Source: Candidatus Rokuibacteriota bacterium (GTDB taxonomy: Bacteria; Methylomirabilota; Methylomirabilia; Rokubacteriales; CSP1-6). Taken from it: a stretch of DNA of 49,746 nt. The DNA is taken from the NCBI GenBank assembly GCA_003220435.1, contig QHSL01000017.1, forward strand, positions 1 to 49,746, written 5' to 3'. Positions 5,315 through 21,723 of the stretch are shown here, piece by piece. The notes under the pieces are model-generated. The model made no database searches. It had not been told where the DNA came from and saw nothing but the letters and a program-made list of their open reading frames with translations. Positions within the stretch are counted from its first letter, which is position 1. Each line of letters begins with the position of its first letter. A program made the position numbers and the translations under genes.

Positions 5315-6268
5315 ATGCGCTGGCTGACGCTGCTCACGAGCCTGCCGCGCACGCCGACCCGGCACCGCGTCGGCGTCTGGCGCAAGCTCCAGCGGATGGG
5401 CGCGGTCCGGCTGCGGAGCGCCGGCTGGATCCTGCCCGAAACTCCGGAGACTACGGAGCTGTTCCAGTGGCTCGTGCAAGAAATTCAATCGTTCCGCGGC
5501 GAGGCCACGTTGCTGCGCGTCGATCGGATCGAACCGATGACCGACGACGAGATCGCCGGCCTCTTCCACAACGCCCGGGGCGTCGAGTATCAGGCGGTGG
5601 TGCAGGGCTGCCGGGACATCCTCCGGCACCTCGATCGCTACCAGCCGAGCCACCGCCGAGCGATCCCACAGCTCCGTAGCGAGCTCGATGGTCTGAGGCG
5701 TGAGCTGGACCGCGTCCAGTCCATCGATTACATGAGGGCGCCAGCCGGGGAGCGCGCTCGCACCCTGTGGGAGACGACGGCCAAGCGGCTGCGCGCCGCG
5801 GAGACGCACCCGCGCGCAACGAGCGGGCGGCACCGAACGTCGCTGCCGCCCCGCGGCAGCACGTGGGTCACGCGGCCGCGACCCCACATCGACCGCATCG
5901 CCTCCGCCTGGCTCATCAAGCGCTTCTGCGATCTGGAAGCAAAGTTTGCCTTTGCCGACGCGGCCGACGCCGCCCGCAAGGGAATCCCGTTTGATGTTCT
6001 CGGTGCGGACTTCGGCCATCACGGCGAGGACTGCACGTTCGAGACCCTGGCCAAGCGGTTCCGCGTCAAGGATCGACGGGTCACGGCGATTGCCGAGATC
6101 GTGCACGAGGCGGACCTGCACGACGGCAAGTTCACCCGCAACGAGGCCCCGGGCGTGGACCTGGCGATCAACGGCCTCGTGGAGGCCACGCCGGACGATC
6201 ACGAGCTGCTCGAGCGCGGGATGGCGATCTTCGATGGGCTCTACACGGTGTTGAAGCAGAAGACGTAG
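5315..6268 (+). CDS. chrB: Chromate resistance regulator/protein ChrB
   Basis: A ChrB-family protein of 317 residues. In chr operons ChrB senses chromate and controls chrA. The N-terminal domain begins MRWLTLLTSLPRTPTRHR and continues with VWRKLQRMGAVRLRSAGWILP, the usual ChrB opening. The C-terminal chromate-resistance domain contains PRPHIDRIASAWLIKRFCD and VLGADFGHHGEDCTFETL, with conserved His, Asp and Cys residues expected for metal or oxyanion sensing. A TTG start at 5279 would add 12 residues, but the family alignment supports the ATG at 5315. It is divergent from chrA and heads a plus-strand series that includes a ChrC-like superoxide dismutase, which matches the chrBAC gene set. Confidence 0.9.
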   Translation: MRWLTLLTSLPRTPTRHRVGVWRKLQRMGAVRLRSAGWILPETPETTELFQWLVQEIQSFRGEATLLRVDRIEPMTDDEIAGLFHNARGVEYQAVVQGCRDILRHLDRYQPSHRRAIPQLRSELDGLRRELDRVQSIDYMRAPAGERARTLWETTAKRLRAAETHPRATSGRHRTSLPPRGSTWVTRPRPHIDRIASAWLIKRFCDLEAKFAFADAADAARKGIPFDVLGADFGHHGEDCTFETLAKRFRVKDRRVTAIAEIVHEADLHDGKFTRNEAPGVDLAINGLVEATPDDHELLERGMAIFDGLYTVLKQKT

Positions 6269-6304
6269 CACATCCATCACGTCGTAACCACTGGAGAAGA
6301 AACA

Positions 6305-6820
6305 ATGAGAAAAATGACGATCGCGCTGGCGTTCCTCGTGGCGTGGTTCTTCGCCGTGCCAACCGGATGGGCCCAGAACTATGGCGACAAGGAGCACGCC
6401 GAGCTGGCGAAAGGCATGAAGGACGCGAAGATCTCGCTGCAGCGCGGACTGGCGGCGAGCGCCAAGGAAGGCAAGCCCATCTCGGCGAAGTACGAGATGG
6501 AAGAGGGCAAGCTCCAGCTCTCCGTCTACACGATGAAGGGCGACAACTTTTCCGAGGTGATTGTCGATCACAAAAGCGGAAAGGTCGCCAAGGCGGAGCC
6601 GATCACGCATGGCGACGACCTGACGGCGGCCAAGGCGCAGAGCGAGGCCATGGCGAAGGCCAAGCGCTCGCTCGACACCGCAGCGGCGGAGGCGGTGAAG
6701 GAGAACAAGGGCTACCGCGCGGTCAGCGTCATGCCGAGTCTGAAGGACGGTCAGCCCGTCGCCGACGTCACGCTGATCAAGGGCACGGAGTGGAAGACGG
6801 TTTCCGAGAAGCTCGATTGA
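6305..6820 (+). CDS. Secreted PepSY-domain protein
   Basis: A 171-residue exported protein. Residues 1-23 form a Sec signal peptide (MRKMTIALAFLVAWFFAVPT, cleavage probably after GWAQ). The rest has two PepSY-like segments: KPISAKYEMEEGKLQLSVY with NFSEVIVDHKSGKVAKAEP, and a second, KGYRAVSVMPSLKDGQPVADV. PepSY domains bind peptides or modulate proteases and are often found in periplasmic sensors or heme and metal handling proteins. GGAGAAG stands just upstream of the ATG. It lies 36 bp after chrB and probably belongs to the same transcript. A link to chromate stress is inference from position only. Confidence 0.82.
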   Translation: MRKMTIALAFLVAWFFAVPTGWAQNYGDKEHAELAKGMKDAKISLQRGLAASAKEGKPISAKYEMEEGKLQLSVYTMKGDNFSEVIVDHKSGKVAKAEPITHGDDLTAAKAQSEAMAKAKRSLDTAAAEAVKENKGYRAVSVMPSLKDGQPVADVTLIKGTEWKTVSEKLD

Positions 6821-6849: not shown

Positions 6850-7521
6850 ATGAATCTCACGCGACGAGCGATGTTCAAAACTACGGTGGCGGCGCTCGTG
6901 GCGGGCGCGTGGCGGCCCCGATTTCGCGCGGCGGACGCTGGGGAGGAGCTCAAAGTGCCGGACAACGCCCCGACTGACAAGTTCGACTTCGAGGCGAAAG
7001 GGATCGAAGGCTGGACCACGGTGGGCGGGCAGTGGGCGGTGGAAGAGATGGCCGGCGCGCCGAGCGGCAAGAAGGTGCTCGTCCAGCGAGCAACGAGAAA
7101 CCAATTCAATGTGATCGTCGCGCCAACGGGCCCGTATACCAATGTCGACGTATCGCTGAAGTTCAAGCCGATCTCCGGACAAGAAGACGCCTCCGGCGGC
7201 GTCGTGTTCCGCTTCACCGATAGCAAGTACTACGTCGTGAGGGCCAACGCGCTCGAGGACAATTTCCGGCTGTACTACTACGACCGGGGCCGCCGTCAGC
7301 TCGCGACGGCCAGCGTGAAGCCCCCGGCACTCGGTGAGTGGCACACGGTCCGGGTCGTGGCCGTTGGCGATCACATCCAGGCGTGGCTCAACGGCACGCT
7401 GTACCTCGATCACCGTGACCCACGGTTCAAGTCCGGCCGCGTCGGCCTGTGGACGAAGGCCGATTCCATCACGGCCTTCGATGACCTCACCATCCGCGGC
7501 GTCACGGGCGGCGGTGGATAG
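6850..7521 (+). CDS. Exported LamG/concanavalin-like (DUF1080-type) domain protein
   Basis: A 223-residue protein with a Tat-like signal at the start: RRAMFK followed by a hydrophobic stretch, with predicted cleavage near AADA. The mature part is a single beta-sandwich of the DUF1080/3-keto-disaccharide hydrolase or LamG type: DASGGVVFRFTDSKYYVVRA, LGEWHTVRVVAVGDHIQAWL, then a closing GRVGLWTKADSITAFDDLTI. These folds bind carbohydrate or ligands, and no catalytic residues can be assigned here. It lies 29 bp after the PepSY gene and 12 bp before the superoxide dismutase gene, so it is very likely co-transcribed. The frame is open further upstream, but the Tat signal supports this ATG. Confidence 0.8.
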   Translation: MNLTRRAMFKTTVAALVAGAWRPRFRAADAGEELKVPDNAPTDKFDFEAKGIEGWTTVGGQWAVEEMAGAPSGKKVLVQRATRNQFNVIVAPTGPYTNVDVSLKFKPISGQEDASGGVVFRFTDSKYYVVRANALEDNFRLYYYDRGRRQLATASVKPPALGEWHTVRVVAVGDHIQAWLNGTLYLDHRDPRFKSGRVGLWTKADSITAFDDLTIRGVTGGGG

Positions 7522-7533
7522 AGAGGGTTGAAC

Positions 7534-8124
7534 ATGACGTATGCCATCAAGCCATTGAACTGCGACCCGAAAAAACTCAACGGGTTGTCCGAGCAGCTGA
7601 TCGTCAGCCACTGGGAGAACAACTACAGCGGCGCCGTGAAGCGCCTGAACGCCATCGCGGCGCAGCTTGCCGACCTCGACTTCGCGAAGGCGCCAGTGTT
7701 CGTGATCAACGGGCTCAAGCGCGAAGAGCTCATCGCAATGAATTCGATGATCCTCCACGAGCAGTACTTCGACGGCCTCGGCGCCGACGGCGAAGCCGAT
7801 CGCGCGCTGCGCGAGGCCCTCGCACGCGACTTCGGGAGCATTGACCGGTGGCGGACCGAATTCGTCGCCATGGGCAAGGCGATGGGCGGCGGCTCGGGAT
7901 GGGTGCTCCTCACCTACTCGCACCGCGACCGCAAACTGGTGAACCAGTGGGCGGCCGACCACACGCATAGCGTGGCGGGCGCGACGCCGATCCTGGCGCT
8001 CGACATGTACGAGCACTCGTACCACCTGGACTACGGCGCTGCGGCGGCGAAGTACGTCGACGCGTTCATGGAGAACATCAACTGGACGAACGTGGCCCGG
8101 CTCCATCGGGCGCACGCGCGATGA
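7534..8124 (+). CDS. chrC: Fe/Mn superoxide dismutase, ChrC-like
   Basis: A 196-residue iron/manganese superoxide dismutase, which removes superoxide formed for example during chromate reduction. Metal ligands by family alignment are His26 (in SHWENNY), His75 (in NSMILHEQYFDG), Asp157 and His161 (in ALDMYEHSYHLDY). The second ligand motif, MILHEQYF, differs from the classical NHTFYW form; this variant is known in a subfamily that includes ChrC. The start is the ATG at 7534 with GAGAGGG six bases upstream; a TTG at 7528 is less likely. The chrA, chrB and SOD set matches described chromate operons. The gene ends overlapping the reading frame of the next gene. Confidence 0.9.
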   Translation: MTYAIKPLNCDPKKLNGLSEQLIVSHWENNYSGAVKRLNAIAAQLADLDFAKAPVFVINGLKREELIAMNSMILHEQYFDGLGADGEADRALREALARDFGSIDRWRTEFVAMGKAMGGGSGWVLLTYSHRDRKLVNQWAADHTHSVAGATPILALDMYEHSYHLDYGAAAAKYVDAFMENINWTNVARLHRAHAR

Positions 8125-8141
8125 AAGGGAGGAACGGCCCC

Positions 8142-9050
8142 ATGAAATCCCAGGCATTGAAGCACACGATTGTTCTTCTCGGGCTGGTCGCGATCGTTGC
8201 CGCGCCGGTCACGGCGCGCGCCGCCGATCCCGACTGGAAGATGGTGGAGCAGGCACTGGGCAAGTCGGGCCAGCTCCAGGCGGGCGACGTCTTCCGCATC
8301 GGCATGCCTCGAACTGATCTCGCGGTCAGCGTGAAGGGTGTTCCCGTCAAGGCTGGGTTCGCGCTCGGATCGTACGCGGCGTTCAAGCAGGTGGGGGATC
8401 GCGCCATGGTCATGGGCGATCTCGTCCTCCTCGATCAGGAGGTGCCGGCCGTCATGTCCGGCCTCCTGAGCGGTGGTCTCGAGGTCACCGCCGTGCATAA
8501 CCATCTCAACGAGATGTCGCCCCACGTGATGTACATGCACTACGAGGGGCACGGGGACGCCGTGCAGATGGCGAAAGCGCTGCGGCAAGCGCTGTCCGCC
8601 AGCGCAACTCCGTTGGGGACCGGCGGAGCACCTCCGGCGGCAGCTTCCCAAGGCCCTGGACTGGACACAAAGCAAATCGAGCAAGCCCTCGGCCGCCCGG
8701 GCCGGGAGGTCGGGGCCGGCGTCTTCCAGGTGACGGTGCCGCGCGCCGAATCGATCACCGAGATGGGGCAGCCATTGCTGCCCGCCATGGGCGTGGTGAC
8801 GGTGATGAACTTTCAGCCGACCGCGGATGGCAAGGCAGCGATCACCGGGGACTTTGTGCTCCTCGACAAGGAGGTGAACGCTGTGGCCCGGACCCTTCGG
8901 CAGCACGGCATCGACGTGACGGCGCTGCATAACCACGGGCTCATGGACACGCCGCGCCTCTTCTACATGCACTTCTGGGGCAACGACGACGCCGTGAAGC
9001 TCGCCCGTGCGCTGAGAGCAGCGCTCGACCAGACTAATAGCCAGAAGTAG
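8142..9050 (+). CDS. Exported protein with two DUF1259 (LppY/LpqO-type) domains
   Basis: A 302-residue exported protein with signal peptide MKSQALKHTIVLLGLVAIVA, cleaved near ARAA. The mature part is a tandem duplication of one DUF1259 unit. Each copy runs from a Gly-rich opening (KSGQLQAGDVFRIGMPRTDL and RPGREVGAGVFQVTVPRAES) to VTAVHNHLNEMSPHVMYMHY in copy one and VTALHNHGLMDTPRLFYMHF in copy two. The paired HNH...MH histidines recur in both copies and could bind metal. The start at 8142 is preceded by GGGAGG at eight bases; the ATG at 8121 overlaps the SOD stop but lacks a better site. The biochemical function is unknown. Its position in the chr-type operon suggests a stress role. Confidence 0.83.
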   Translation: MKSQALKHTIVLLGLVAIVAAPVTARAADPDWKMVEQALGKSGQLQAGDVFRIGMPRTDLAVSVKGVPVKAGFALGSYAAFKQVGDRAMVMGDLVLLDQEVPAVMSGLLSGGLEVTAVHNHLNEMSPHVMYMHYEGHGDAVQMAKALRQALSASATPLGTGGAPPAAASQGPGLDTKQIEQALGRPGREVGAGVFQVTVPRAESITEMGQPLLPAMGVVTVMNFQPTADGKAAITGDFVLLDKEVNAVARTLRQHGIDVTALHNHGLMDTPRLFYMHFWGNDDAVKLARALRAALDQTNSQK

Positions 9051-13208: not shown

Positions 13209-13910
13209 TTATCCCGGCACCACGATGTGGTCAAACCCCTCGGCGTAGGAATACCCCGTCTCCTTTCCCAGCGTCGCCGCGCGGTTCCGCATGCGAGCCT
13301 CGACCGCCTCGAAGTCACCGACCTGGCTCTTGTGGCAGCGGATCGCCTCGAGCTTCAGCTCCATCGTGCCCGTAATGTCGAGAACGAGTCGCGGCTGTTC
13401 CCACTGCACCAGGTACACCTCACGCACCTTGTGCGGCTCGTGGTCGGGCAGCAACTCCGGAAAGGAGAGATGGTCGCGCGCCAGCGGGTAGACACAATCG
13501 AGGACAACACGGGCAGTGGTTCGATGGTCCCGGTGCCAGCCGGGAAAGCTGTTGTACGTGCGGTATGGGTTGAGCGTGATGACAAGGTCTGGTCGCCATC
13601 GTCGAATCTCACGACTGATGTCGCGCCGCAGGTCGCGGGTATCCTCGAGCTCGCCGTCCTCGTAACCGAGGAACTCCACGCTCCGGACTCCGAGCACACG
13701 GGCAGCTCGTCGCTGTTCGTCTTCCCGGATCGGTATCAGTTGCTCCGACGTGATATTGCGGTCACTCGAACCTTTGTTGCCGTTGGTCACGACGACGTAG
13801 GCGATCTCACGGCCTTCCATGGCCAACCGACCGACGGTTCCGCCAGCCAAGAACTCCGGGTCGTCGGGATGCGCGGCGACGACCAAGACGCGGCCATTGG
13901 CGGTGGTCAT
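13209..13910 (-). CDS. PIG-L/LmbE-type zinc-dependent deacetylase
   Basis: A 233-residue PIG-L family N-deacetylase. The zinc-binding motif AAHPDDPEF lies at about residues 12-20, followed by FLGYEDGELEDTRDLRRDI and the second metal and catalytic region PGWHRDHRTTARVVLDCVYP. Family members remove N-acetyl groups from sugars or sugar conjugates, for example in bacillithiol, mycothiol and lincomycin pathways. A role in low-molecular-weight thiol or glycoside metabolism is possible but not shown. The start overlaps the preceding MFS gene by four bases (ATGA at 13907-13910), so this gene is the third member of the MerR-MFS-deacetylase operon. Confidence 0.88.
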   Translation of the reverse strand: MTTANGRVLVVAAHPDDPEFLAGGTVGRLAMEGREIAYVVVTNGNKGSSDRNITSEQLIPIREDEQRRAARVLGVRSVEFLGYEDGELEDTRDLRRDISREIRRWRPDLVITLNPYRTYNSFPGWHRDHRTTARVVLDCVYPLARDHLSFPELLPDHEPHKVREVYLVQWEQPRLVLDITGTMELKLEAIRCHKSQVGDFEAVEARMRNRAATLGKETGYSYAEGFDHIVVPG

Positions 13911-15109
13911 GAGTCGTCTCCTCTTTCTGCACTGACCGCCGCCGTGGTGCTTGCGTGACGGCGGCACCGCCATGCCGCCCCCGCGAGCAGTGCGGCTCCC
14001 GTCAAGAATGGCGCGGAGAGATCGATGGCGTCCGCGAGAACGCCCATCACGAGAGGGCCCAGGATCTGGCCACTATCGCTCATCGTGCGAAGCCAGCCGA
14101 TCGCGATGCCCTGGAGTGGAGGTTCAACCTGGTCGCTCGTCAGCGCTGTCGGAACGGCCGCGACGAAGCCTGCCGTGGCTCCGATCGCGAAGCTACAAGC
14201 GCCGAGGACGACCGGCTGCGTCAGCCGTGACGCGCCAGCCAGCAACGCGGCGTAGATGAGCAAGCCCGGAATCAGCACGTGCATGCGACCTCGCCGATCC
14301 GAGACGGTGCCTCCCAGCCATAGCGCCATGAGTCGCCCGAGTACGCTCAGACTGACGACGGTGCCGACGGCCTCCGGGCCAAGACCCGCGTGGGTGAGCA
14401 GGTAAAGCGGGAACAAGAACACCAGAACACCCGTCTGAATAGCCGTCAACAGCCCGTTCGTCACACCCATGAGAACCACTCCGCGTGTGCGCAGCACCGT
14501 GGTCAGAACGCGTCGATCCTGTGATCGTTGCTGCGACGGGGCGGCGGCGAGTGACGCCCAGCGTCCGACGGTGATCCCCGCCACGACCATGCACGCTGCC
14601 TCGAAGAGAAATGGGCTGGCGACTCCAATCCCCTGATACAGCCAGCCGCCCGCGGCACTGCCCAGCAACAGTCCCGCTGTTTCACTCATCAGCAGCAAGC
14701 TGACCGCCTGGCCTCGGCTCTGCGGCGCCGGCAAGCTGACGGTGGCGGTCGTGGCAACCGTCGCAAACATCGCCCAACCAACTCCGCCCAGCGCGCGCAA
14801 CCCCAGGAACACATCGAACCGCGACGTCATGACGCTGACGACATCGATGAATGCAATCAGCACCAAACCCCCGACCATGAGCGGACGTCCGAGATGGTTC
14901 AATACGTATCCGGTCGGGATGTTGGCGATCCATTTGCCGGCGCCGAACACGACCGGGATCAAGGTCACCATCCGGTAGTTCGCGGAGAACGTGCGCTGGA
15001 GATAGAGCGGCATCGAGGGGCGCAAAACGCCTTGGCCGAGATTGAACAAAAATGCCGCGGCGAGTACGGCCGCCGGCACCCTCTGCGTCCGCTCGGACGG
15101 CAGCGTCAT
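13907..15109 (-). CDS. MFS transporter under MerR control
   Basis: A 400-residue twelve-helix MFS permease. The loop 2-3 motif is GYVLNHLGRPLMVGG and its second-half counterpart GGTVSDRRGRMHVLIPG. It overlaps the upstream MerR gene and the downstream deacetylase gene by four bases each, so the three are one translationally coupled operon. Control by the MerR protein through the operator at 15606-15636 is expected. That makes export of the MerR inducer, or of a compound made or processed by the deacetylase, the likely role. The substrate is not recognisable from sequence. Confidence 0.88.
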   Translation of the reverse strand: MTLPSERTQRVPAAVLAAAFLFNLGQGVLRPSMPLYLQRTFSANYRMVTLIPVVFGAGKWIANIPTGYVLNHLGRPLMVGGLVLIAFIDVVSVMTSRFDVFLGLRALGGVGWAMFATVATTATVSLPAPQSRGQAVSLLLMSETAGLLLGSAAGGWLYQGIGVASPFLFEAACMVVAGITVGRWASLAAAPSQQRSQDRRVLTTVLRTRGVVLMGVTNGLLTAIQTGVLVFLFPLYLLTHAGLGPEAVGTVVSLSVLGRLMALWLGGTVSDRRGRMHVLIPGLLIYAALLAGASRLTQPVVLGACSFAIGATAGFVAAVPTALTSDQVEPPLQGIAIGWLRTMSDSGQILGPLVMGVLADAIDLSAPFLTGAALLAGAAWRCRRHASTTAAVSAERGDDS

Positions 15110-15573
15110 GCAGTCGCTTCGGACGTTCCAATCGGTCCGGATTCACGTCGGCGCACCGGACCGTTCTTCGTCTCCAGGCATTGACATGCGCGGCCGCGAG
15201 GGCGGCGTACCGCGGTTCGCATTCGTTGGTGAATCTGCTCGAGCTGCTGCCGCAGTCGTTCCAGCTCGGTGATCTGATTCGTCACGGCGTCGAGCTGCGC
15301 CCGAACCAGTGTGCGAAGCCGAGGACGGAGATCGGGGCGCGCGCCTCCGTTGAAGGTGCCCATCAGTGTCTTGAGCTGTTGAAGCGGCAGGCCCAGGGAA
15401 CGGGCTCGACGGATGAACCGGAGCCGCTCCACGCCGGGCTGATCGTAGAGTCGGTAGCCTGACGCGGCGCGGCTGGGGGCCGGCAACACTCCGATCTGTT
15501 CGTAGTAGCGGATCGTTTTCGCGTCTACGCCGCTCGTCTTCGCGACCTGGCCGATCGTAAGGCTGGGGGCCAT
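15106..15573 (-). CDS. MerR-family transcriptional regulator
   Basis: A 155-residue MerR regulator. The winged helix-turn-helix is at residues 5-75 (LTIGQVAKTSGVDAKTIRYY, then YEQIGVLPAPSRAASGYRLY), followed by the long dimerisation helix rich in Leu and Gln. The C-terminus carries a CQC pair (RACQCLE), which could bind a soft metal or react with thiols, but the classic CueR or ZntR metal loop is not obvious. It is the first gene of an operon with MFS and PIG-L genes. A canonical MerR operator with a 19-bp spacer lies just upstream, so it very likely activates its own operon when bound to inducer. Confidence 0.9.
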   Translation of the reverse strand: MAPSLTIGQVAKTSGVDAKTIRYYEQIGVLPAPSRAASGYRLYDQPGVERLRFIRRARSLGLPLQQLKTLMGTFNGGARPDLRPRLRTLVRAQLDAVTNQITELERLRQQLEQIHQRMRTAVRRPRGRACQCLETKNGPVRRRESGPIGTSEATA

Positions 15574-15823: not shown

Positions 15824-16765
15824 TCACCCCTTCGAGGTCGTGCTCGTCTTCTTCTTGAGGCGCCGTGCGTCCTTCCTCCCGTGTGCCGTGTGCTCGAGGA
15901 GCTCCATGAAGGCGCGGGCGCTCGCGGTGACCCTGCGCGATTCATGGTGCAGGACATGAAAGTGTCGTTGAATCCGAACGCCACGGAGTCGGAGTGCGCG
16001 GAGCCGGCCGGTAGTCGTTTCGCCGCGTACCGCATACACCGATGCAAACGCAACGCCCAGACCGGCCATCACGCCTTGCTTGATCGCTTCAGTGTGGTCG
16101 AGTTCCATCGTCACCCTGAACTTGACACCCGCCCGCTGTAGCGCGCGTTCCGTGACGCTTCTGGTCGCGGATCCTGCCTCCCGCATGAGCAGAGGCTCAT
16201 CGGCAAGCGCCTCGGGCGCGATGTCCCGCCGCCTGGCCCACTGGTGTCGTGGCGGGACGATGAGCACCAGCTCATCAAGCATCCCTGCGGCCAGACATTC
16301 CTGGCCCGGGCTGACGCTATGCCCTCCCACAATGCCGAGATCGAGTTCGCGCTCTCCGACGCGCTGCTCGATGACCTGAGAATTGGCAATTTGGAGCTTC
16401 AGATCGACGCCTGGATACCTCGTGCGAAACGCGGCGACGATGCCGGGCATCACGTAGAGCCCTGGTGTCGTGCTGGCGCCGATCAAGAGTGATCCGTGAG
16501 CCAGACCATCGAGCTCCGAGACCGCTTGACGCGCTTCCTCGACCGAGGACACCACGCTAGCGGCATATCGCTCAAAGACACGGCCGGCCTCGGTCATGGT
16601 CACCTCCTTTCCCCGACGGTAGAACAGAACCTTTCCCAGCTCGCCCTCGAGCTCGATGACGTGTTCGGAGAGCGTCGGCTGTGACGAATGGATTTTCTTC
16701 GCGGCACGGCTGAAGCTTTTTTCTTGAGCGACGGCGAGAAACACCTCGAGCTGGCGCAACGTCAT
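15824..16765 (-). CDS. LysR-family transcriptional regulator
   Basis: A 313-residue LysR-type regulator. The N-terminal winged helix-turn-helix begins MTLRQLEVFLAVAQEKSFSR and includes AAKKIHSSQPTLSEHVIELE. The effector-binding domain covers about residues 90-295, with GLGVAFASVYAV near the hinge. It resembles CysB/CbbR-like members in its HTH, but the ligand is unknown. It is divergent from the metallo-beta-lactamase-fold selenoprotein gene, with 95 bp between the two starts. LysR proteins usually control the divergent gene, so it is the expected regulator of the selenoprotein-MFS-PLP/NifU operon. Confidence 0.92.
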   Translation of the reverse strand: MTLRQLEVFLAVAQEKSFSRAAKKIHSSQPTLSEHVIELEGELGKVLFYRRGKEVTMTEAGRVFERYAASVVSSVEEARQAVSELDGLAHGSLLIGASTTPGLYVMPGIVAAFRTRYPGVDLKLQIANSQVIEQRVGERELDLGIVGGHSVSPGQECLAAGMLDELVLIVPPRHQWARRRDIAPEALADEPLLMREAGSATRSVTERALQRAGVKFRVTMELDHTEAIKQGVMAGLGVAFASVYAVRGETTTGRLRALRLRGVRIQRHFHVLHHESRRVTASARAFMELLEHTAHGRKDARRLKKKTSTTSKG

Positions 16766-16860
16766 TTCGGGTTTTCCCTATGCTCTCAATCCAAAGTTCG
16801 TATTGGACCCTATAGCACAGGCTGGCGTATCACAAGCCCAGAACTTGAAAGGAGGACGCT

Positions 16861-17598
16861 ATGATCTTCCGCCACTTCCTGTCACCGAAGACGGGCTGCG
16901 CCAGCTACCTGTTTGGCTGAGGGGGCGCCGCCTGCTGCGCTGTGGTGGATCCACAGCTTGAGATCGAGCCCTACCTCGAAGCCGCCGCTCAGAAGTCCAT
17001 GCGGATCACGCATATCTTCGAGACCCACGTCCAGGCCGATCATCTGTCCGGGGCTCGCCGTCTCTCGGATGCGACCGGCGCCCCAGTGATCTTCCACAAG
17101 TCAGCACCGGTCGAGTTCCCACATCTCGATGTTGAGGACGGGGAGCGACACGCGCTTGGCAACGTGGTGCTCTCGATCCTCCACACGCCGGGGCACACCC
17201 CGGACAGTCTCTCGATCCTGGTCACGGACAAGACGCGGGCCTCGGAGCCATGGTTCGTCCTGACCGGCGATACGCTCTTCTCCGGCGGGGTCGGCCGCCC
17301 AGACCTCATTGGCGCACGCTCGGAAGCGATGCTCGCCGAACAGCTCCACGAGAGCCTGCACAGCAAGATCATGACGCTACCCGATCACCTCGAAATCTTT
17401 CCCGCGCATTTCGGGGGTGCGGCGTGCGGCAAAGGTCTGAGCGGGAAGCCCGGCTCGACCATCGGCTTCGAGCGTCGTTTCAACCCGGCACTCCAGGCTA
17501 GGTCGAGAGCCGAGTTCGTGGATTTCGTCCTGGCGGACCTTCCCCCCCAGCCCGAGGCCTTCGCGGTGAATCGCCGGCGCAACCTGACGGGCACATGA
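16861..17598 (+). CDS. Metallo-beta-lactamase-fold selenoprotein, persulfide dioxygenase-like (in-frame UGA at codon 20)
   Basis: A 245-residue metallo-beta-lactamase-fold protein if UGA at 16918-16920 is read as Sec. It begins MIFRHFLSPKTGCASYLFG, then U20, then GGAACCAVVDPQLEIEPYL. Homologues have Cys at this place (YLFGC...AVVDP). The strong AAAGGAGG ribosome site lies before the ATG at 16861, and nothing comparable precedes the GTG at 16942 that a standard caller would choose. Metal motifs are ETHVQADHLSG (Gln where many relatives have the second His), HTPGHTPDS, LTGDTLFSGGVGRPDL and FPAHFGG. Overall it is closest to the ETHE1/persulfide dioxygenase and rhodanese-linked hydrolases that act on glutathione persulfide. 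It overlaps the following MFS gene by four bases. Confidence 0.85.
16939..16957 (+). promoter_or_regulatory. Candidate bacterial SECIS hairpin of the metallo-beta-lactamase-fold gene
   Basis: A perfect 7-bp stem, GCTGTGG (16939-16945) with CCACAGC (16951-16957), closes a five-base loop UGGAU with G at position two. The loop begins 25 bases after the UGA, within the 16-37 base range accepted for bacterial SECIS elements. Confidence 0.75.
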
Positions 17599-18845
17599 GC
17601 GAAATGCGGCTCGGACTGCGGGAGAACCTCCCGCAGTTCGCGCTGCTCGTCGTCCTGAATTCCTTTGTCGGCGCCATGGTGGGCCTGGAGCGGACCGTGC
17701 TGCCGCTGCTTGGCGAGCAGGAGTTCGGTCTCAGCTCGAAGACTGCGATCACTTCGTTCATCGTGAGCTTCGGCGTGACGAAGGCGATCATCAATCTGAT
17801 TGCGGCCCGTGCATCTGACCGCATCGGTCGGAAGCCGATCCTGGTGGTCGGCTGGCTCTTCGCCCTGCCCGTGCCATTCCTGATCATCTACGCGCCGGCA
17901 TGGTGGTTGATCGATCTCGCCAACGTCCTGCTCGGCGCCAACCAGGCCATGGCGTGGTCGATGACGGTCATCATGAAAATAGACCTCGTCGGACCAAAGC
18001 GACGGGGCCTCGCCTTGGGGCTGAACGAGTTCGCGGGGTACTTCGCGGTGGGGGTGATGTCATGGGTCACTGGTTACATCGCCGCTCACAGCGCGTTACG
18101 CCCGCAGCCCTTTTACCTCGGGATCGTCATCGCCATCGTCGGCATCACGATGTCCGCCCTTTTTGTCAGAGAGACGCGACCCTATGCGCACCTCGAAGCG
18201 GCCACGTCACTTCAGACCTCTAGCGGCGGCGTCCGTCCATCGCTACAGAACGTCTTCTATGTGACGAGTCTCGGAAACGTCAGCCTCTTCGCGGCCTGCC
18301 AGGCGGGACTCGTGAACAACCTGAACGACGGGATGTCGTGGGGGCTCTATCCGCTCTTCTTCGGCGCGTACGGCCTCGGCGTCGGCAGTATCGGCACCAT
18401 CAAAGCGGTCTATCCCATCGTGTGGGGTGTCCTGCAGGTGGTGACCGGGCCGCTGTCCGACCGCGTTGGCCGGAAAGAGCTGATCGCGTGGGGCATGATC
18501 GTGCAGTCCGGCGGGATTTGGCTGACGGTCCTGATGCCGACCTATGTCGCGTGGCTGGTCGGGGCCGCGTTGCAGGGACTCGGAACGGCGATGGTCTACC
18601 CGACGCTCCTGGCCGCGATCACGGACCATGCGCACCCTGCGTGGCGTGCGACAAGCCTCGGCGTCTACCGATTCTGGCGCGATCTCGGATACGCCATCGG
18701 AGCAGTGCTCTCCGGCGCTGTCGCGGACCTCGTCGGTATCGCGGCAGCAATTCACCTCGTCGCGGCGCTCACGTTCGTCTCTGGTCTCGTCGTCGCACGG
18801 TTGATGGGCCAGACGAGGCCTCGCCCGGCTCTGGCTCACCCCTGA
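17595..18845 (+). CDS. MFS transporter in the selenoprotein operon
   Basis: A 416-residue MFS permease with motifs AARASDRIGRKPILVVG in loop 2-3 and GPLSDRVGRKELIAWG in the second half. The start ATGA overlaps the stop of the persulfide dioxygenase-like selenoprotein gene, and its own stop lies 7 bp before the PLP/NifU fusion gene. The three are therefore one operon. The substrate is not known. From its partners, a sulfur or selenium compound, such as an organosulfur substrate or a reaction product, is the natural guess. No unusual residues are seen. Confidence 0.9.
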   Translation: MSEMRLGLRENLPQFALLVVLNSFVGAMVGLERTVLPLLGEQEFGLSSKTAITSFIVSFGVTKAIINLIAARASDRIGRKPILVVGWLFALPVPFLIIYAPAWWLIDLANVLLGANQAMAWSMTVIMKIDLVGPKRRGLALGLNEFAGYFAVGVMSWVTGYIAAHSALRPQPFYLGIVIAIVGITMSALFVRETRPYAHLEAATSLQTSSGGVRPSLQNVFYVTSLGNVSLFAACQAGLVNNLNDGMSWGLYPLFFGAYGLGVGSIGTIKAVYPIVWGVLQVVTGPLSDRVGRKELIAWGMIVQSGGIWLTVLMPTYVAWLVGAALQGLGTAMVYPTLLAAITDHAHPAWRATSLGVYRFWRDLGYAIGAVLSGAVADLVGIAAAIHLVAALTFVSGLVVARLMGQTRPRPALAHP

Positions 18846-18852
18846 GGTTTCA

Positions 18853-20574
18853 ATGACAAACGCACTGTCACGCGAAACGCTGGCCGCCCAAGCCCTCGGT
18901 GAGATCGATCAAGCGTCAGGCGCTCTCTCGCCGGTGATCTACCCATCGACGATATACGAGCGGCGCCCCGACGGGAGCTACAGGTCCGGCCTGGCTTACA
19001 CGCGTGCGGACAATCCGACCTACGACCACGCCGAACGGCTGCTCGCCGCCCTGGAGGGTGGCGTCGCGTGCATGCTCTTCGCCTCCGGCAGCGCGGCGGC
19101 AACAGCCGTCTTTCAGTCTCTCCTTCCCGGGGATCATGTCCTCGTCTCGCGGATTCTCTACTGGGGCATTCGCCGGTGGCTCGCGGAGTTCGCGGTCTCG
19201 TGGGGGCTCGACGTCGAGTTCGTCGACACCACAGACCTGGCCCAGGTAAGTGCTGCTATCCGCCCCGGTCGTACGCGCCTCTTGTGGGTCGAGACGCCCG
19301 CCAATCCAATGTGGGACGTTACGGACCTCGCGGCCGTGGCGGAGATTGCCCATGCAGTGGATGTGCGCGTGGCCGTCGACAGCACTGCGGCAACCCCCGT
19401 CTTGACACGTCCCATCGAGTTCGGCGCTGATCTCGTGGTCCACTCGGCCACGAAATACCTGAATGGCCACAGTGACGTCCTCGCCGGCGCCGTGGTCACG
19501 GCGCGCGCTGATCCCTTCTGGGAGCGGATCCGCTCGTGGCGCCGGAGCGCCGGCGCCGTGCTCGGCCCGTTCGAGGCCTGGCTGCTGCAGCGCGGGATGC
19601 GGACTCTGTTCGTCCGGGTGCAGCGTTCGTCCCAGAGCGCTCTCGCCATCGCTCGTCATTTCGATGGGCATCAAGCACTGACCGCGGTGCTCTACCCTGG
19701 ACTGCCGTCTCATCCCAACCACGAGGTTGCGGCGCGCCAGATGACGGGCGGATTCAGCGGGATGCTGTCGCTCCGGGTCGCTGGCGGCGAGGCCAACGCC
19801 ATGAGCGTGGCCGGTGCCGTACGCGTGTTCAAAAGGGCTGTGTCACTCGGCGGCGTCGAGAGTCTCATCGAACACCGCCGCAGTACGGAAGGGCCGTCGT
19901 CACCGGTGCCGGATGATCTGTTGCGTTTGTCGATCGGGCTCGAGGCGCCCGAGGACTTGATCGCAGACCTCGATGCAGCGCTGGAGACGGTCTCGAAGAC
20001 CGGTGCCGCTGGCGGGCCAGTGCCTGAACCTTTACCGACGTCGCTGGCAGGTTCAGCCCTGGCCGCGGCGGTCGTCGCTGTGATCGACCGTAGCGTGACG
20101 CCGTCCATCATCGCTCGGGGAGGTTCGGTACGCCTCGTCGCCATTGAGGGTGATGTGGTCACCCTCGAAGCGAGTGGATCGCCAGGCGCTGTCTTACCCG
20201 CGGCCTCACATATCGAGGCGCTTCTGCATGCCGAGGTGCCCGGAGTAGCCGAAGTGCGAGTCGTGTGGCCTGGGCCCACTCTGACACCGGGCAGTCCCGC
20301 TGATCTGACCGAGCGCGTACGCCGGATCCTCGACTCCGAGGTGAATCCCGCCGTCGCCGCACACCTCGGACGAGTGACCCTGGTTGATGTCGCCGAAGGC
20401 CGCGTGCACATCCGTCTTGAGGGCGGGTGCCAAGGATGCAGCTTAGCGGAGGTCACGATCCGGCAGGGTGTTGAGCGTCTGCTTCGGGCGCGTCTCCCTG
20501 AGATCGCCGGGGTTGTCGACACGACCGATCATAGTGCGGGGACCAACCCCTTCTTTGCGCCGGGTAAGCGATGA
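18853..20574 (+). CDS. Fusion of a Cys/Met-metabolism PLP enzyme with a C-terminal NifU-like domain
   Basis: A 573-residue fusion. Residues 1-380 form a fold-type I PLP enzyme of the cystathionine gamma-lyase/gamma-synthase family: ASGSAAATAVF binds phosphate, VETPANPMWDV and VDSTAATPVLTRP surround the cofactor, and Lys201 in HSATKYLNGHSDV is the Schiff-base lysine. Such enzymes cleave or form C-S (or C-Se) bonds. Residues about 395-470 look like a degenerate NifU repeat without cysteines. Residues about 485-573 are a complete NifU-type domain with Cys526-x-x-Cys529 (EGGCQGCSLAEV), which could hold an Fe-S cluster or accept sulfur. Normal family members end near residue 390. It is the last gene of the selenoprotein-MFS operon. 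Confidence 0.88.
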   Translation: MTNALSRETLAAQALGEIDQASGALSPVIYPSTIYERRPDGSYRSGLAYTRADNPTYDHAERLLAALEGGVACMLFASGSAAATAVFQSLLPGDHVLVSRILYWGIRRWLAEFAVSWGLDVEFVDTTDLAQVSAAIRPGRTRLLWVETPANPMWDVTDLAAVAEIAHAVDVRVAVDSTAATPVLTRPIEFGADLVVHSATKYLNGHSDVLAGAVVTARADPFWERIRSWRRSAGAVLGPFEAWLLQRGMRTLFVRVQRSSQSALAIARHFDGHQALTAVLYPGLPSHPNHEVAARQMTGGFSGMLSLRVAGGEANAMSVAGAVRVFKRAVSLGGVESLIEHRRSTEGPSSPVPDDLLRLSIGLEAPEDLIADLDAALETVSKTGAAGGPVPEPLPTSLAGSALAAAVVAVIDRSVTPSIIARGGSVRLVAIEGDVVTLEASGSPGAVLPAASHIEALLHAEVPGVAEVRVVWPGPTLTPGSPADLTERVRRILDSEVNPAVAAHLGRVTLVDVAEGRVHIRLEGGCQGCSLAEVTIRQGVERLLRARLPEIAGVVDTTDHSAGTNPFFAPGKR

Positions 20575-21319: not shown

Positions 21320-21356
21320 GAAAAGCGCCAGAGAAGGCCTGTAAGCCGGGTTCTGT
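21320..21356 (+). repeat. Right 37-bp direct repeat inside the rnpB 3' end
   Basis: Identical to 11205-11241. Here it forms the 3' strand of helix P1 and neighbouring bases of the intact RNase P RNA. Together the two copies bracket 10.1 kb of accessory genes. Confidence 0.75.
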
Positions 21357-21723
21357 CTCCCCAACCGGTTTCCCGACCGGGGCGACGGTCATTTCTCTAC
21401 GGCGCCGGTTGCCCGGCGCCTCCAGCGACCTAACCCGGGAGCGGCGCGGGCCACGCCGTAGCTCCCCTATTTGGTCTTGCTCCGGGTGGGGTTTACCTAG
21501 CCGGTGCGGTCACCCGCCCCGCTGGTGAGCTCTTACCTCACCGTTTCACCCTTACCGACCCGCCACCCTTGCGGGCAAAGACGAGACGGCGGTTTCTTTT
21601 CTGTGGCACTGGTCCGTGGGGTTACCCCCCCTGGGCGTTACCCAGCACCCTGCCCTGCGGAGCCCGGACTTTCCTCCCGCCGTGTTGCCACGACCGGCGA
21701 CCGTCCAGCCTTCTCTGGCGCAC
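21323..21723 (-). ncRNA. rnpB: RNase P RNA, bacterial class A
   Basis: The catalytic RNA of RNase P, which trims tRNA 5' ends. On the minus strand it starts near 21723 with GCGCCAGAGAAGGC, and its 3' end carries the exact complement GCCTTCTCTGGCGC, forming helix P1. Conserved blocks are present: GAGGAAAGTCCGGGCTCC near the 5' side, GGTGAAACGGTGAGGTAAGA in the middle, and ACAGAACCCGGCTTACAGG near the 3' end. Length is about 400 nt, usual for class A. A T-rich run follows the 3' end. The last part is duplicated at 11205-11241. Confidence 0.93.

Follow-up and report, generated by a model that had tools for sequence, protein, structure and literature searches.

The question raised by this locus is how a protein-coding gene carries TGA as its codon 20 and, if this codon is read as selenocysteine (Sec), what selenium would do in a protein of the metallo-beta-lactamase (MBL) fold. 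The gene, referred to here as Sec-PDO, lies in a window (the whole stretch of DNA that was analyzed, 49,746 nucleotides) from a soil bacterium that is a relative of Rokubacteria. A sequence-only reading of this window had proposed a selenoprotein resembling persulfide dioxygenases. The selenoprotein claim passed every computational test, including conservation of the UGA, freezing of the SECIS codons and presence of Sec machinery, and these comparisons indicate that the gene almost certainly codes for a selenoprotein. The features discussed below are listed in Table 1.

Table 1. Positions of the Sec-PDO gene, its signals and its neighbors in the window
Feature	Position	Strand	Basis or remark
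Divergent LysR-family regulator	15824..16765	-	NF040786 'selenium metabolism-associated LysR'
Shine-Dalgarno AAAGGAGG	16848..16855	+	seen in sequence
Sec-PDO gene, 245 aa	16861..17598	+	ATG 16861, frame open to TGA 17596-17598
In-frame UGA, codon 20, selenocysteine reading	16918..16920	+	UGA in 43/43 orthologues; Cys in closest paralogues
Bacterial SECIS hairpin GCUGUGG-UGGAU-CCACAGC, codons 27-33	16939..16957	+	conservation, bSECIS rules
HVQADH motif (H56 iron ligand equivalent, Q58, D60, H61)	17026..17043	+	sequence
MFS transporter	17595..18845	+	start overlaps Sec-PDO stop (ATGA)
Cystathionine/methionine gamma-lyase-type PLP enzyme fused to NifU-like domain	18853..20574	+	PF01053 + PF01106

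Conservation of the in-frame UGA

In the window, the frame runs from the ATG through MIFRHFLSPKTGCASYLFG (19 sense codons) to the UGA. The strong Shine-Dalgarno site and ATG that had been noted upstream of the UGA are present; most orthologues have a comparable purine-rich site ahead of the start, and the start codon is GTG in one of the 29 own-phylum orthologues read. These 29, one per genome, came from a search of 95 genomes of the same phylum, which yielded 31 matches of full length that contain a single TGA, spread over 29 genomes, as well as fragments. Codon 20 was UGA in every one. A wider search of 388 genomes revealed UGA forms in two further phyla, on follow-up in 14 genomes of one and 2 genomes of another, and all 14 genes read from these phyla also had UGA at this position (43/43 full-length orthologues read, three phyla).

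The region upstream of the UGA was taken in the sequence-only reading for the normal N-terminus of the family, and it is conserved as protein. M1, I2, F3, R4, P9, G12, C13, A14, Y16 and G19 are invariant in the 29 own-phylum orthologues, synonymous sites in codons 2-19 vary and most dN/dS estimates are about 0-0.3; by these measures, the 19 codons preceding the UGA evolve as protein. Cys (not Trp), as had been expected, is found exactly at position 20 in the closest paralogues, the metallo-beta-lactamase-rhodanese fusions of CstB/Blh type. In a tree that covers the own phylum, the Sec genes form one clade (support 94/92) adjoining the Cys20 rhodanese fusions; the paralogue L085, for example, carries rhodanese domains. 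Loss of these domains together with one Cys-to-Sec change would be one natural reading of this arrangement.

The family spans at least three bacterial phyla and is missing from the catalogue published in 2026. The 119-family selenoprotein table of May 2026 has no MBL-fold or persulfide-dioxygenase family (PMC13188914); it cites a Methylomirabilota MAG for which 63 selenoproteins were predicted (Deng et al. 2026, Cell Rep 45:116760), and the supplement of that study may hold the family. No case of Sec in an MBL or persulfide dioxygenase protein turned up in literature searches. Like the 119 known families, Sec-PDO has a UGA with a nearby bSECIS and Cys-containing homologues, and sulfur metabolism is represented in the table by Sec rhodaneses and a Sec subtype of type III sulfide:quinone reductase (PMC13188914). 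With Sec-PDO the selenoproteome would gain a fold and a non-heme-iron, sulfur-oxidizing enzyme class, in hosts that are uncultured soil and groundwater bacteria.

SECIS hairpin and selenocysteine machinery

A perfect 7-bp stem with a UGGAU loop, which the sequence-only reading had placed 18 nt past the UGA, was found there and is kept in 29/29 own-phylum orthologues, with all 7 pairs formed. Its folding energy in the window is -11.1 kcal/mol with z = -3.9 (equal folding in 0/200 shuffles), a z-score that is flattering, the element having been picked for its folding, so that conservation is the real test. The z-score of the longer 46-nt stretch from the UGA is only -1.3, and the case for a SECIS element therefore rests on conservation and not on energy. 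The bSECIS rules call for a 4-16 bp stem, a 3-9 nt loop, a distance of 16-37 nt from the UGA, G in the first two loop positions and an MFE <= -7.5 (PMC13188914). The window element agrees with them (7 bp, UGGAU, 25 nt and the energy given above); the N1-N2 loop pair common in such elements is here U-U, unpaired.

Codons 27-32 are nearly invariant as GCT GTG GTG GAT CCA CAG in the 29 own-phylum orthologues. The freezing extends to synonymous sites (GCT 28/29, GTG GTG 29/29, CCA 29/29) and includes minor codons: across these GC-rich genes, 13% of the codons for Pro are CCA and 11% of those for Ala are GCT. Codon entropy across codons 27-32 is 0 to 0.36 bits, compared with 0.5 to 1.7 predicted by gene-wide usage. 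Stem variation is limited to L060 (U-A to C-G) and L065 (U-G), both with Gln32 changed to Arg; in L060 the RNA pair is maintained while the amino acid changes, which amounts to one compensatory event. Most pairs never vary and the compensatory signal was matched in 41/500 shuffling trials: covariation by itself is weak, and the frozen synonymous sites are the strong signal.

The Cys20 paralogues do not retain these codons. A natural control is offered by the one Cys20 copy of the Sec-PDO family itself (L100 1330-1545, G090:C69), a truncated copy with TGT at codon 20 in which the frozen SECIS codons are gone (GCC GTC GTG GAT CCG). It is probably decaying, and its genome also retains an intact UGA copy. 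Another genome has a second UGA copy (L101, G092:C145), in which homology is confined to the first 75 codons and the standard hairpin is absent; it is probably a decaying duplicate.

The same codons hold different hairpins in the other phyla, so that one gene has three SECIS hairpins, clade by clade. In the second phylum the freezing covers nine codons, 27-35 (GCG GTC GTC GAT CCT CAG TTC GAG GTC), in 11/11 genes, and the hairpin, which has a bulged U and an AGUUC loop, folds weakly alone (-4.4 kcal/mol). In the third (G167/G535), the hairpin is GAUCCCC-AGGU-GGGGAUC.

A genome lacking Sec machinery had been named in the sequence-only reading as a refutation, but selA, selB, selD and tRNA-Sec were all found in the source genome (assembly of 5.4 Mb, 95.5% complete). 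The tRNA-Sec (anticodon UCA) is next to selA and selB (contig C138). Among the 29 own-phylum genomes having the full-length UGA gene, tRNA-Sec scored over the cut-off in 27, the exceptions G055 and G066 being fragmented MAGs; in the other phyla it was over the cut-off in G167 and G220. The selD gene (L081, G000:C100:66727-67671) also contains a TGA in frame (CAGU), followed by a strong hairpin, and SelD itself is probably a selenoprotein.

Together, the sequences strongly support a model in which ribosomes would decode UGA-20 as Sec via SelB, tRNA-Sec(UCA) and the hairpin behind it. That the UGA is a true stop, leaving a pseudogene or a 218-aa protein restarted at GTG-28, agrees with standard ORF finding (16942-17598) but is extremely improbable, as strands 1-2 would be lost (a consequence already pointed out in the sequence-only reading), codons 2-19 are under purifying selection, the UGA is kept in 43 orthologues of three phyla together with a Shine-Dalgarno site before the ATG, SECIS and Sec machinery, and 0 UGA-family genes start at the downstream GTG, so that the other refutation named in the sequence-only reading failed as well. 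Mechanical annotation begins at this GTG, so the first two strands are missed. It is equally improbable that a code change or a suppressor makes the UGA stand for Trp or some other residue: the open frame alone would be compatible with it, but TGA also serves as the terminal stop of Sec-PDO, in the window as in many orthologues, and Cys in the paralogues, the frozen hairpin and the Sec machinery speak against such a reading.

Fold, active site and position of residue 20

Sec-PDO belongs to Pfam PF00753 and is a stand-alone protein with no rhodanese domains; it passes no NCBIfam model. The fold proposed earlier held, as it matches the CstB/ETHE1 type with the iron triad kept. The best PDB matches of the predicted structure (pLDDT 86.9) were 3r2u and 3tp9, with TM about 0.92-0.94, and a ranking by sequence and fold placed these metallo-beta-lactamase-rhodanese proteins first, followed by ETHE1-type persulfide dioxygenases. 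Staphylococcus aureus CstB and the Alicyclobacillus MBL-rhodanese protein (3r2u, 3tp9), closest in fold and sequence at 34-38% identity, have Cys where Sec-PDO has Sec20. They differ from it in their rhodanese domains and in having HIHADF, whereas Sec-PDO has HVQADH. Cys189 of Sec-PDO aligns with their CGK-motif Cys and equals CstB Cys201 by count on the 3r2u alignment; residue 201 is reportedly important for CstB activity. The ETHE1-type enzymes (MxPDO 4ysb, hETHE1 4chl, AcPDO) share the MBL fold, the iron triad and second-shell residues, but MxPDO has Asp at position 20, and the window protein has Sec there and Gln in place of the second His of HxHxDH.

C13, Sec20, D30, H56, D60, H61, D137 and H183 are invariant in the 43 orthologues, and H112 (42/43) and Cys189 (41/43) are nearly so. 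The Fe triad of persulfide dioxygenases on the MBL fold (His, His, Asp) is thus present as H56, H112 and D137. In AcPDO, the iron ligands are H57, H113 and D130, H59 is a second-shell residue whose H59A mutant keeps 6.6% activity, and T13 is bonded to the second-shell H171 (PMC6060420). Alignment with ETHE1-type enzymes, proposed earlier as a check, mapped both iron triad and second-shell positions: the triad is complete and Gln58 occupies the position of H59. The Gln in HVQADH, which had been thought to make the active site stranger, is indeed there, but a change of iron ligand is ruled out by this mapping, and residue 58 is Q in 28/43 and H in 15/43 orthologues. Because it sits at the AcPDO H59 position, Gln58 may change or abolish activity on persulfides. 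On balance, persulfide dioxygenase activity of Sec-PDO is somewhat probable.

The suggestion that Sec lies next to the metal site finds no support in the topology. A strand is predicted for residues 13-20, followed by a turn and a strand at 25-29, and residue 13, the equivalent of AcPDO T13, is at the active site; since this is one end of an 8-residue strand, residue 20 should be at the opposite end. Sec20 thus probably occupies the distal end of strand 2, ~20 A from the iron.

Gene neighborhood and possible roles of Sec20

The MFS gene is adjacent to Sec-PDO in 26/29 own-phylum loci and is also found beside the UGA genes of other phyla (44-64% identity, either gene order). When compared with PDB, it gave nothing beyond weak multidrug-exporter matches. 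A persulfide context is suggested by two genomes: in G180 the same MFS follows a Cys20 MBL-rhodanese fusion, and in G167 an ArsR-rhodanese regulator gene is upstream of the UGA gene, a pairing that would be expected of a persulfide sensor.

The explanation that we favor, with moderate confidence, combines a selenoprotein, persulfide oxidation, a peripheral role of Sec and export by the MFS protein. A single-domain CstB/Blh relative that retains the iron triad and second-shell D60/H61/H183 would, because these residues are kept, most likely convert low-molecular-weight persulfides to sulfite. Sec20 would stand where the rhodanese-fused paralogues already conserve a Cys, in the hairpin between strands 2 and 3 and at a distance from the iron. 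Rhodanese being absent, one may speculate that Sec20 is a peripheral nucleophile there, either accepting sulfane sulfur or withstanding over-oxidation. The coupled MFS protein may export the sulfur product, a role we propose because sulfite export has been suggested for TauE, which occurs beside a persulfide dioxygenase in Streptomyces (PMC7533328). A stronger version, in which a persulfide (or perselenide) dioxygenase that depends on Sec and has an MFS exporter of its own would form the first MBL-fold selenoprotein family, in three phyla, with Sec replacing the rhodanese sulfur relay, is tentative and less likely. The family offers a clean natural Sec/Cys pair for asking what selenium buys a persulfide enzyme.

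It is also conceivable, though rather unlikely, that the substrate of the selenoprotein is a selenium compound (a perselenide or seleno-persulfide) or some other molecule, and that the protein handles selenium with the LysR and MFS proteins. The Gln58 change at the active site would suit such a role, as would the LysR match to NF040786 (254.9 bits, just above the cut-off of 250). All 15 of the 15 LysR neighbors sampled match this model at E <= 1e-30, but YeiE and CysB-type models match too. The divergent LysR gene occurs at 21/29 own-phylum loci and was not found beside UGA genes in the other two phyla, where one upstream regulator is the ArsR-rhodanese protein, and the iron triad is typical of sulfur enzymes. 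The lyase-NifU fusion, an unusual protein that could release sulfide or selenide, also speaks for selenium substrates; it belongs to the cluster in few genomes (downstream in L009, L119 and L121, part in L122 and L107).

Less probable still is that Sec20 serves as a structural or redox-switch residue, forming a selenenylsulfide with Cys25/26 across the hairpin and thereby regulating the iron enzyme. Cys26 (23/43 orthologues) and Cys25 (8/43) do face residue 20. However, neither is present in most other-phyla orthologues or in clade L064-L066/L069, and a resolving Cys at these positions, and with it the redox switch, cannot be the family-wide role.

Several other features were observed around these genes. 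A conserved GTATTGGACCCTATA motif (window about 16800-16822) in the LysR/Sec-PDO intergenic region may be a LysR box or a promoter. In L132 the MFS gene is directly followed by a chromate-transporter (ChrA) family gene (5472-6623), and L129 has a same-sized ORF (7451-8602) at this place. A cluster of a MerR regulator and a second MFS transporter (window 13907-15573) is found by the Sec-PDO cluster in L009, L010 and L121 as well. The window also contains a class A RNase P RNA at 21326-21716 (309 bits).
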